Virus record (IMG/VR): IMGVR_UViG_3300007540_000050
Location: 1 to 32,671 of that record
Source of the DNA: a virus
Strand: one strand, 5' to 3'
DNA length: 32,671 bases
The position numbers and the translations under genes were made by a program. This document shows positions 4,672 to 26,083 of the stretch, piece by piece. Within the stretch, counting starts at the first letter, position 1. Every line of letters begins with the position of its first letter. The notes beneath the pieces were generated by a model. It did not search any database and was not told the DNA's origin. It saw only the letters and a list, made by a program, of their open reading frames with translations.

Positions 4672-4959
4672 TCAATTTCTAAGGTATGCTATGCAAACTC
4701 CATTTGAGATAGTTATATCTGATATATCACCCTTAATAATATGAAAATCTTTTAGAGTTAAATCAGTCACAGTTTGATCACCTCCATCTGTATTACTAGT
4801 AAAACTAATTGTAGTTGCACTATGTAAAGACTCTATTAAACAGTAATTTTCACCACTTGGGCTGGTATCAGTTCCAGATGATGATAATATTCTAAATCCA
4901 AAATCGCCAAAAGACATTCTATGAAATAGGTTAGCGCTGTAAAGTTGTTTTGTTGCCAT
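4672..4959 (-). CDS. Small conserved phage protein next to fibres
   Basis: This 95-residue protein begins MATKQLYSANLFHRMSFGDF, a pattern I associate with small uncharacterised proteins beside fibre and lysis genes of marine phages. It has no membrane segment and looks beta-rich, with repeated Thr/Ser-Ile stretches and a C-terminal aliphatic strand. Its ATG overlaps the stop of the next gene upstream, so it belongs to the same operon as the holin and endolysin. A minor virion or tail-tip role is only a guess from position. Confidence 0.65.
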   Translation of the reverse strand: MATKQLYSANLFHRMSFGDFGFRILSSSGTDTSPSGENYCLIESLHSATTISFTSNTDGGDQTVTDLTLKDFHIIKGDISDITISNGVCIAYLRN

Positions 4960-5333
4960 TATTTAGTTTTATCTTTTAATTTCTCGTATGTTCTTAATCC
5001 GCCCAAACCTAGCATCCCCATAAGTACAGTAAAAAGACTATTGGTATCAAACTCTGGAGGATTAATGTCAGTATAAGATATAAGCAGCGGCATCACTATG
5101 TAATGAAATCCAAAAGCTAAACCGCAAATCCATCCTATAAAAGGTCTCCAAGCCGAAACAAACCAATGTCGACTCTGAGCCTCTACTTTATTAATCTCTG
5201 CCTGGAGTTCTATAAGGCGCTGAGGATCCATCTCTTTGCCTTTTATTGCCTCTCTTATATCCAAAGCTAAACCACCGATATTTGATTTACCGCTGTCACC
5301 TTTTCCTAAAAGAGATAATAACATTTTAAGCAT
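4959..5333 (-). CDS. Holin of the 3TM / gene-transfer-agent type
   Basis: The 124-residue product has an amphipathic N-terminus, a charged stretch (residues 25-55) and then RHWFVSAWRPFIGWICGLAF, which matches the WRPxxGW entry to the first membrane helix of the 3TM (GTA) holin family. Hydrophobic segments lie at about 61-87 and 99-115, and the end is LGLGGLRTYEK. Holins of this family form lesions in the inner membrane that release the endolysin. The start lies 8 nt inside the end of the endolysin gene, so the two are translationally coupled as a lysis cassette. Confidence 0.75.
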   Translation of the reverse strand: MLKMLLSLLGKGDSGKSNIGGLALDIREAIKGKEMDPQRLIELQAEINKVEAQSRHWFVSAWRPFIGWICGLAFGFHYIVMPLLISYTDINPPEFDTNSLFTVLMGMLGLGGLRTYEKLKDKTK

Positions 5334-5787
5334 AGAACTCGTATTTTGTCTTTTTACCTTTTTTAACCGCCTTTAAAATATTGCCTCTATTACCAGATGG
5401 TCCCACATAAGATACGTGAATCCAGTCTGGGTTTTCATCATCACCAAACTCCCATATTAACTGGTCAAAAGGTAGGTTGTCTTTTATGTAATGAAATAAT
5501 TCAGCGTTTGTTATCTCACCTGTAGCATCAATATCTATAGCTTGACCTTTAGTATGTTGTGAGTTCCTGGATGATCTTATTGCATCACATAAATCTGGCG
5601 ATCTATAAAAACTATTCACACGAATTGGCTCGCTTGCCCATTCTCTGAGCGGCTCGAATACATTTTTCGCAAGCTTTTTCATATTTACCACAGCCGATTC
5701 TGTCGGTGTGTTTTCGATTTCTTTTTTCTCCGCTGTCGCTGAGTGACTCGCCTCCCTCCAGCTGATATGTTTGCTGATATATCTCAT
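5326..5787 (-). CDS. M15-family peptidase endolysin
   Basis: This 153-residue protein is a complete single-domain peptidoglycan peptidase of the M15 (VanY/D-Ala-D-Ala carboxypeptidase-like) type. The signature SQHTKGQAIDID gives zinc ligands H78 and D85, and DWIHVSY gives the third ligand H124; FYRSPDL upstream is the usual substrate-side motif. There is no signal peptide or cell-wall-binding domain, which is normal for Gram-negative phage endolysins that rely on a holin. It is followed directly by the overlapping holin gene. The exact bond cut cannot be told from the sequence. Confidence 0.87.
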   Translation of the reverse strand: MRYISKHISWREASHSATAEKKEIENTPTESAVVNMKKLAKNVFEPLREWASEPIRVNSFYRSPDLCDAIRSSRNSQHTKGQAIDIDATGEITNAELFHYIKDNLPFDQLIWEFGDDENPDWIHVSYVGPSGNRGNILKAVKKGKKTKYEFYA

Positions 5788-8761: not shown

Positions 8762-8765
8762 ATAT

Positions 8766-8773
8766 CAAAGCTA
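8766..8773 (-). promoter_or_regulatory. -7 box, likely leaderless start of the nuclease gene
   Basis: The minus strand reads TAGCTTTG, a perfect TAnnTTTG, separated by 4 nt from the GTG start. A TTTA lies 19 nt upstream at the -33 position (three of four consensus bases). Transcription starting at the usual distance would begin at or very near the start codon. Confidence 0.5.
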
Positions 8774-8774
8774 C

Positions 8775-8806
8775 AAAAAAAACCCTAGACGTTAAATCCA
8801 GGGTTT
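8775..8806 (-). terminator. Terminator after the microprotein operon
   Basis: A perfect 7-bp stem (8780-8786 with 8800-8806) and a 13-nt loop are followed on the minus strand by eight T residues that include the stem end. It lies 24 nt past the stop of the 40-residue zinc-binding protein and one base before the next -7 box. Confidence 0.78.
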
Positions 8807-8830
8807 CCCTATCAAAATGAAACAAAGTAT

Positions 8831-8953
8831 TTATAGCATATAAGCCTCAAAACAACTTGAGCTACAAATGTCGTCACCATAACTAGGTCGGTCGCAAACT
8901 TTGCAATATCCTCCCTCGTAATCATCTGGCGGTGTGTGGTCGTAAAATTCCAT
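8831..8953 (-). CDS. 40-residue zinc-ribbon microprotein
   Basis: A short frame from ATG at 8953 to TAA at 8831 encodes an acidic N-terminus (residues 1-16) followed by C17-x2-C20-x9-C30-x3-C34, a complete four-cysteine zinc-binding set in the style of small Zn-ribbon proteins (FCSxxC type). It starts 1 nt after the stop of the preceding microgene and is the last gene before the terminator at 8775-8806. The target is unknown; such microproteins in phages often bind and modify a host enzyme complex, but that is inference. Confidence 0.65.
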   Translation of the reverse strand: MEFYDHTPPDDYEGGYCKVCDRPSYGDDICSSSCFEAYML

Positions 8954-8954
8954 A

Positions 8955-9089
8955 TTATCGTTTTTTAATTTCGTCTAATCTTTCTGTAAAATCCCATATC
9001 TTTTCACTGAGATACATATAATCTACTGCATTCATTTTGTCAGTCAGGTCTCTAATGCTGTTTAAATAAAAATCGTAAGGCTCATCCAT
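8955..9089 (-). CDS. 44-residue acidic helical microprotein
   Basis: ATG at 9089 overlaps the end of the preceding microgene (ATGGATGA), and the stop lies 1 nt before the next ATG, so its place in the operon is precise. The product is highly charged and probably all helical (LNSIRDLTDKMNAVDYMYLS). No family is recognised. The tight coupling on both sides is the main support that it is translated. Confidence 0.55.
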   Translation of the reverse strand: MDEPYDFYLNSIRDLTDKMNAVDYMYLSEKIWDFTERLDEIKKR

Positions 9090-9228
9090 TATTATATCGG
9101 TATAAAACAAATGATAAAATAAACATTACAAGAGCATCCCACAAAGCCTGGAATCTAAAGCCCAGGGAAAACCCCCAGGCGATAAACCCTATTATCAAGA
9201 CAACCCTTACCTTTTGCTGCAAATCCAT
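9082..9228 (-). CDS. 48-residue two-helix membrane microprotein
   Basis: A frame from ATG at 9228 to TGA at 9082 encodes two hydrophobic segments (about residues 8-24 and 28-43) joined by a short basic turn (FRFQ), with a positively charged N-terminus. It starts 3 nt after the upstream microgene stop and overlaps the next start by 8 nt. It may act in the inner membrane, for example in superinfection exclusion; nothing in the sequence proves this. Confidence 0.6.
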   Translation of the reverse strand: MDLQQKVRVVLIIGFIAWGFSLGFRFQALWDALVMFILSFVLYRYNNG

Positions 9229-9231
9229 AAT

Positions 9232-9396
9232 CTATAGGTCGTAGTTGATAAATAAAATAACATCTAGTATGGCATACATAAAAAAGAAGCCAGTTACATT
9301 TACGGCAAATGCGCCTAATAAAATCTTTGCTTTTGACATCTCAGCCAATACAATCCACTCAGTTGAGTTTGTGATTTTTTGAACTAATTTTTTCAT
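9232..9396 (-). CDS. 54-residue membrane microprotein, first gene of its operon
   Basis: The ATG at 9396 gives a 54-residue protein with a basic N-terminus (MKKLVQKI) and one long or two short hydrophobic segments (about 22-51). A longer frame upstream would have to start at TTG 9447, but that would place the start inside the operator and promoter, so the ATG is preferred. The leader carries AAACAAAC and follows a complete -33/-7 promoter. Function unknown. Confidence 0.65.
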   Translation of the reverse strand: MKKLVQKITNSTEWIVLAEMSKAKILLGAFAVNVTGFFFMYAILDVILFINYDL

Positions 9397-9417
9397 AATA
9401 TTTAAAGTTTGTTTCCC

Positions 9418-9448
9418 CAAATTTACAGATTTATTTGGAAATTCCAAA
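9418..9448 (-). promoter_or_regulatory. Complete Bacteroidota promoter for the microprotein operon
   Basis: On the minus strand a -33 TTTG (9448-9445) is followed after 19 nt by the -7 box TAAATTTG (9425-9418), the full consensus for the primary sigma factor of this phylum. The leader begins GGGGAAACAAAC, 22 nt before the ATG at 9396. The -33 box lies inside the palindrome at 9433-9449, so a bound repressor would block it. Confidence 0.7.
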
Positions 9449-9449
9449 T
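9433..9449. promoter_or_regulatory. 17-bp palindromic operator, copy 1
   Basis: The sequence ATTTGGAAATTCCAAAT is a perfect palindrome of two 8-bp arms around one central base. Read on the opposite strand, the site at 26057-26073 matches it at 16 of 17 positions. Both sites overlap the -33 region of a promoter and lie at the same distance from an AAACAAAC leader. A dimeric repressor is the likely ligand. Confidence 0.65.
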
Positions 9450-9476
9450 TTATGGGGAAATTATTTTATAAAGCAT

Positions 9477-9506
9477 AAAAAAAGGGTAACCAATTAAGGC
9501 TACCCT
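9477..9506 (-). terminator. Terminator after the capsid gene
   Basis: A 9-bp stem (9483-9491 with 9498-9506, one G-U pair on the minus strand) with a 6-nt loop is followed by a run of seven T residues counting the stem end. It lies 45 nt past the capsid stop codon and closes the capsid transcript. Confidence 0.88.
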
Positions 9507-25800: not shown

Positions 25801-25818
25801 AGGGGAGTTGCCTCCCCT
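25801..25818 (-). terminator. Short GC-rich hairpin after the first early gene
   Basis: A perfect 7-bp stem (25801-25807 with 25812-25818) closes a GCAA tetraloop on the minus transcript and is followed by four T residues. The short T-run suggests partial termination or processing between the first and second early genes. Confidence 0.62.
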
Positions 25819-25824
25819 GGGTTA

Positions 25825-26016: not shown

Positions 26017-26083
26017 TTGTTTGTTTGTTTGTTTGTTTCTGTAAAAGTACGCAAAAATTTGGAATTTCCGAATATTTTCGGAA
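26017..26083 (-). promoter_or_regulatory. Early promoter with operator and AAAC leader
   Basis: On the minus strand, TTCG (26072-26069) is followed after 19 nt by TACTTTTA (26049-26042), which fits a weak -33/-7 pair, and then by five AAAC units (26038-26017). The operator at 26057-26073 (attcggaaattccaaat on the minus strand) matches the copy at 9433-9449 in 16 of 17 positions. A second overlapping palindrome, ttccgaa-tatt-ttcggaa (26066-26083), gives three half-sites in total. Operator, -7 box and leader are spaced exactly as at 9408-9449. Confidence 0.62.

Follow-up and report, generated by a model that had tools for sequence, protein, structure and literature searches.

A conserved microprotein operon behind the capsid gene of uncultured phages has an operator in common with the early promoter

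Imm of phage T4 is a superinfection exclusion protein of the inner membrane. P22 SieA also acts in superinfection exclusion at the inner membrane and, in the accessible part of its description, has 162-164 residues and three segments and is expressed from the prophage (PMC10883804). These small inner-membrane proteins outside the structural programme, which occur in sequence-diverse types, resemble two predicted membrane proteins of the operon described here, but SieA as given in that partial source differs from the microproteins in its larger size, its segments and its prophage expression, and no sequence similarity between them was found. Cluster A mycobacteriophages, as far as the accessible part of the source describes them, use an immunity repressor with dispersed operators, or stoperators (PMC6550527). 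Our phages have in common with them an HTH repressor candidate and a site type that varies between related phages and matches the repressor of the same phage; in the same partial source the stoperators are many and mostly lie away from promoters, whereas here there are two operators, both at promoters, a microprotein operon in a structural block appears to be controlled, and no integrase was seen among the genes scanned in the window (the whole stretch of DNA analysed, a virus record from IMG/VR of 32,671 bases). Cro/CI-type repressor-operator systems are alike in their HTH fold with a recognition helix and in an operator specificity that matches this helix, and palindromic operators overlap the promoters at both sites in the window, a feature of such systems. 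Phage morons share with the operon its own promoter and terminator, its small size and its place between structural genes, but the operon is universal in close relatives, has an average G+C and has an operator in common with the early genes.

The recognisable genes of the window lie on the minus strand. On this strand an HK97-type capsid gene (10756-9551; PHROG 10, E 1.4e-51) is followed by m1 (9396-9232), a hypervariable, hydrophobic protein of 54 residues with one membrane segment by hydropathy, m2 (9228-9082), 48 residues with two hydrophobic segments flanking a short R..D loop, m3 (9089-8955), 44 residues, acidic and probably helical, and m4 (8953-8831), a putative zinc-binding protein of 40 residues. 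The junctions are +3 (m1/m2), -8 (m2/m3) and +1 (m3/m4), and the operon spans 9396-8831 on the minus strand. The initial annotation had reported four packed frames of 54, 48, 44 and 40 codons with these junctions, one of them encoding a four-cysteine protein; all four are present and exceed chance, and m4 holds the motif C-x2-C-x9-C-x3-C. It had also placed them between capsid and connector genes, which is right on the capsid side, but on the other side a PD-(D/E)XK nuclease gene (8761-8387, minus strand; Pfam PDDEXK_5) and a small L9-like gene precede the connectors. The base composition of the cassette is not atypical (G+C 0.350 versus 0.352 for the window).

A capsid scan gave 55 loci and a scan with m2 a few more. 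After exclusion of loci whose contig stopped inside the capsid-to-nuclease interval, 50 remained that reach from the end of the capsid gene to the start of the nuclease gene, and together with the window they made up 38 distinct intervals. Clade A comprises 30 of these, including the window, and clade B the other 8, with capsids 70-75% identical. All four genes are present, ordered and unbroken in each of the 30 distinct clade-A intervals, among which no frame was lost to a stop codon, and m1 to m4 are therefore core genes rather than a sporadic moron. Median dN/dS was 0.41 for m1, 0.20 for m2, 0.26 for m3 and 0.16, the lowest of the four, for m4 (148, 289, 265 and 217 pairs, respectively); the low nonsynonymous change that had been proposed as a check was thus found, and on these comparisons the genes are under purifying selection in close relatives. 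The position -3 from the start codon is A in 30, 29, 24 and 23 of the 30 sequences of m1, m2, m3 and m4, and the accessible part of PMC6847099 describes A at -3 as a Kozak-like signal in Flavobacterium. Where capsids are 88-97% identical (293 pairs, capsid median 93%), the median amino acid identity was 50% for m1, 79% for m2, 68% for m3, 82% for m4 and 84% for the nuclease. In the eight intervals of clade B, m2 is recognisable, and the first and third genes occupy the same places without being recognisably homologous; m1 and m3 have no detectable homologue there, m4 is missing, and the third gene is basic whereas m3 is acidic.

A Bacteroidota-type promoter, TTTG-N19-TAAATTTG (-33/-7), was found by sequence match at 9448-9418 on the minus strand and is conserved in relatives; the consensus, TTTG/TANNTTTG, is that given in the accessible part of PMC6847099. 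The full pattern TTTG-N19-TAnnTTTG matches once in the window, before m1, against 2.42 matches expected by chance. As this count is not significant, the promoter rests on its conservation, with a full match ahead of m1 in 27 of the 30 distinct clade-A intervals (L028, L034 and L053 are the exceptions), and this makes convincing a promoter that the initial annotation had singled out as the only complete -33/-7 promoter of the window. The spacer was 19 nt in 22 intervals and 20 nt in one; for L009, L010, L023 and L055 an overlapping upstream match with a 22-nt spacer was reported, and the 19-nt match is in the sequence as well. A scan of the window for bacterial sigma-70 promoters gave 6 sites, against 10.8 by chance. 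Between capsid and m1 lies the intrinsic terminator of the capsid gene (9506-9483, minus strand; -15.3 kcal/mol, z -3.8), a hairpin with a T-run that is seen in 27 of the 30 distinct intervals and would isolate the operon from capsid transcription. The intrinsic terminator of the operon itself (about 8810-8776, minus strand; -16.9 kcal/mol, z -4.2) follows m4 in 30 of the 30 when all T-runs are examined. The operon is therefore self-contained, having a promoter and a terminator of its own as had been proposed. The promoter type and the start-codon context make a Bacteroidota host probable for the phage.

At 8766-8773 of the window, just ahead of the GTG start codon of the nuclease gene, lies TAGCTTTG, which is kept in most of clade A. 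A leaderless nuclease mRNA from this possible promoter was considered and dropped because its G is disfavoured at that place by the Flavobacterium johnsoniae consensus TAHHTTTG, as given in the accessible part of PMC6847099.

An operator with three half-sites, TTCC-N10-GGAA-N-TTCC (9437-9459, minus strand), overlaps the -33 box ahead of m1, and a second exact match to this pattern lies in the early promoter region (26061-26083, minus strand). These are the only two occurrences in the window, where 0.02 would be expected, and the suggestion that the operon and the early genes have an operator in common was well founded. Of 187 collected loci, many of them the same contig repeated, 65 carry the exact pattern, once each. 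The clade-A m1 promoters, with a spacer of mostly 19 nt, fall into two types that were defined after the sequences had been seen, type 1 with the palindrome and type 2 with TTTGCAATRTG; L033, which differs, and L053 were assigned by eye. Early promoters were taken from 13 relatives, of which 8 from clade A also show the m1 promoter, giving nine records with the window (the m1 promoters of L012, L037 and L052 were read from the identical intervals of L009, L036 and L031). The same type is found at both promoters in all nine, type 1 in five (the window, L003, L052, L034 and L037) and type 2 in four (L012, L017, L020 and L021). The promoters of four clade-B records are of other kinds, but in these too the m-slot promoter resembles the early promoter of its own record. 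When m-promoters were compared with the early promoters of their own records in 13 records, 1 of 100,000 permutations, which ignore relatedness, was as good. Mapped on the capsid tree of 30 rows, the type of the m1 operator shows 6 changes, of which at least 4 fall on starred branches. The nine records with both promoters hold only 2 of such changes, 1 on well-supported branches, which leaves a sign test without power and provides no independent-contrast test. We consider the operator at both promoters to be real, and the case for co-regulation read from these sequences to be strong but not conclusive because the nine records hold about two independent switches.

The candidate regulator is a 63-residue HTH protein encoded in the early operon (25432-25241, minus strand; PHROG 4583 'transcriptional repressor', E 4.8e-5), a relative of which was found in 28 of 28 records searched (E 7e-43 to 8e-9). 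Its AlphaFold model (pLDDT 85) has the recognition helix at residues 30-38, and the best Foldseek matches to this model were mostly HTH regulators, none at E < 0.001. Helices 2 and 3 separate the two operator types, the protein carrying VA[D/N]..LG[F/I/Y]SY[E/D]TLKRKL with type-1 operators and VTDHLGITYxTLRSKL, or a variant of it in L172, with type-2 operators. Helix type and early-operator type agree in 25 of 25 clade-A loci (16 distinct combinations) and in the window, although these 26 of 26 records span few independent switches; one locus with a type-1 HTH protein and no readable promoter and 14 more distant loci were left out. The neighbouring protein at the Erf position is independent of operator type, the type-1 records L067 and L068 carrying the version of type-2 records. 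The HTH protein is thus the probable repressor of both promoters, and the position of the operator points to repression rather than activation. This would make a concrete two-promoter regulon in uncultured phages, with one 63-residue regulator and an operator in two interchangeable types.

Alternatively, the operator match could reflect a common promoter architecture whose types are inherited by descent, with no common regulator. This is in line with the small number of independent switches that the nine linked records contain and with the 16 deeper or clade-B/C records, 4 of which had their own early region as the best promoter match and 1 as the worst, but it does not account for an exact three-half-site pattern found at two places and nowhere else in the window, for the agreement of the type with residues of helices 2 and 3 in a single HTH protein, or for the 6 changes of m-operator type (at least 4 of them on starred branches) that the tree of the adjacent capsid gene shows, and we consider it unlikely.

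A hydrophobic 17-residue segment with a mean hydropathy of at least 1.6 was found in 29 of 30 sequences of both m1 and m2; by hydropathy these are candidates for the two membrane proteins claimed at first. The protein then described as acidic, m3, has a median net charge of -3, but m4 is the more acidic of the two (median -7). The four cysteines of m4 are invariant in 11 aligned sequences. Together with its distant relatives, m4 resembles DUF2116-like treble-clef or zinc-ribbon microproteins in a CxxC...CxxxC or CxxC arrangement, but its best Pfam match, at E 0.043, is not significant and its AlphaFold model has a pLDDT of 61, a model too poor for a fold search, which was set aside. The homology search that had been proposed for each microprotein led to no known family; nothing significant was found for m1 to m4 in Pfam, PHROGs, PADLOC and NCBIfam, and no similarity to a known superinfection-exclusion (Sie) family was found in the same databases. 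Cultured phages gave no DNA match to the window, no match to m2 and one irrelevant match (E 3) to clade-B m2; the capsid has matches in 805 of their records, all under 60% identity. No match to m4 was found in 84,980 prokaryote genomes, and no literature on this operon in a licence-limited set of papers. A seemingly empty stretch between virion genes can therefore be a conserved, separately controlled microprotein operon without a family match.

More distant relatives were collected with a capsid profile that included the distant contig L188; from its 525 confirmed matches the best 80 were taken, making 81 loci with L188. Among these best 80 plus L188, the interval could be read in 69 of 81 loci and has the nuclease at its end in every one of them, and at least one hydrophobic microprotein is encoded in 61 of the 69. 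A profile of a two-segment hairpin protein, built from 15 of those same proteins, matched in 59 of the 69 intervals and in no reverse-strand decoy. This protein is a possible homologue of m2 (hhalign E 2.4e-4 but probability 43%). Six loci (L188-L193) encode a four-cysteine protein of 39 residues related to m4 (hhalign probability 89%, E 2.5e-6), and no deep homology was found for m3. In distant clades, variable accessory ORFs precede the conserved part of the slot.

We think it somewhat probable that m1 to m4 form a second early operon under the HTH repressor, with microproteins that act at the host inner membrane. Host RNA polymerase would transcribe this operon, an outlying one among virion genes and insulated by terminators, from the Bacteroidota-type promoter. 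The 63-residue HTH protein, a product of the early operon, would bind the three-half-site operator that overlaps the -33 box at each of the two promoters and shut both, so that the microproteins would appear together with the replication proteins rather than with the capsid; the binding, the repression and the early timing are what we infer from the arrangement. In the membrane, m1 would be the variable component facing the host or a competitor, with m2 beside it and with m3 and the Cys4 protein m4 as soluble partners of the pair. The operon appears to share its repressor with the early replication genes, which suggests that its products take over or guard the membrane of the host cell. The microproteins may act in host takeover or in the exclusion of a second phage; superinfection exclusion, like anti-defence, had been suggested at first. 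A more far-reaching and rather doubtful proposal is that a large group of uncultured phages has a fixed slot for early cargo behind the capsid gene, here holding a repressor-controlled operon for a new membrane-acting exclusion or takeover complex, in which m1 would be the exchangeable specificity factor and the Cys4 protein its partner, with expression set by the hairpin inside m2. The slot is in any case a fixed place to look for anti-host proteins, in a capsid lineage with more than 500 matching contigs.

The action might instead be soluble, with m3 and m4 targeting host RNA polymerase or a defence system and m1 and m2 secondary. The conservation of m4, the most conserved member with its four cysteines kept, would suit this, as would the differing accessory ORFs in the slot of other clades, which are expected of early anti-host cargo; it is nevertheless improbable given that PADLOC, Pfam and NCBIfam gave no match and that m2, a predicted membrane protein, is the only member whose sequence can still be recognised in clade B. 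Still less probable is a service in virion assembly, for example in anchoring the prohead to the membrane, which would explain the capsid neighbour and a place between capsid and nuclease that is the same in all intervals that could be read, those of 69 of the 81 deeper loci (the best 80 of 525 plus L188) among them, but not the terminator and the separate promoter with an early operator that divide the operon from the capsid gene, nor the variable accessory ORFs in the same slot of distant clades. Holins are typically small, and two small hydrophobic proteins, one of them a two-segment hairpin, could assist in lysis as antiholin or pinholin, with the early repressor setting their timing; this is very unlikely and a lysis cassette was rejected, since a holin (PHROG 3427; Pfam GTA_holin_3TM) and an endolysin (PHROG 894; Peptidase_M15) are already together at 4959-5787, the operon being neither beside the endolysin nor a replacement for a missing holin, and early-type control would be odd and m3 and m4 left unexplained. 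A membrane role against host or competitor seems to us preferable to lysis or assembly because of the membrane pair, the variable m1 and the accessory-gene neighbourhood. The moron of the initial annotation is not supported, given the presence of the operon in 30 of 30 distinct intervals of close relatives, its average G+C and a slot kept in distant relatives, and the idea would fit only the variable ORFs ahead of the cassette in distant clades.

The coding sequence of m2 contains an RNA hairpin (9149-9191, minus strand) with a stem of up to 19 pairs. Codons 12-30 form it in 28 of 30 clade-A rows, with -17 to -30 kcal/mol, and in the 8 rows that were scanned no other element of the operon is as stable. 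Compared with synonymous-codon shuffles, z was -2 or lower in 18 of 19 distinct sequences (median -4.5). In the alignment 93.4% of cells are paired, 3 pairs are changed on both sides and the covariation score is above that of 500 of 500 shuffles; a register shifted by -2 has four double-changed pairs, yet 51.5% of cells paired. The hairpin is missing from L026 and L027 and is not shown by the clade-B m2 genes, and its four Rfam matches are all under the gathering score. Judged by the shuffles and the covariation, it is a selected RNA element that had not been noticed before, with codons chosen to preserve the stem, and it probably tunes the translation or stability of the mRNA.

Hairpins with GNRA-like loops (GGGGAGGCAACTCCCC; GAGGGCGGCAACGCCCTC) were seen at 25801-25820 of the window and in the m-slot of clade B (L043-L047, L056); in the early operon, as in the clade-B capsid slot, they come after the variable ORF that stands first. 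In almost all distant relatives (L039-L048, L056, L138-L147, L188-L268) the capsid terminator is immediately followed by differing small ORFs, and the capsid-to-nuclease interval of these relatives is an accessory-gene hot spot ahead of the conserved microproteins. One accessory family (MENLFIQSTIND...) is found in both operons, at the capsid slot in L041 and among the early-operon genes in L076 and L077, as if cargo moved between two early transcription units. L188 (PBPJ01000031.1), the one contig found in the genome scan with the capsid profile, is a tailed-phage contig with this gene order that was binned in a Candidatus Woesearchaeota MAG and is probably a misbinned phage contig. The 51-kb record IMGVR_UViG_3300026187_000022 (L012 and L055) has two different capsid/microprotein regions about one genome length apart and is a chimeric or concatemeric assembly. 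At 17663-19693 of the window, a TET/JBP-type 2OG-Fe oxygenase gene adjoins genes for an FkbM methyltransferase and a ParB-like protein, a set that possibly serves DNA or glycan modification.
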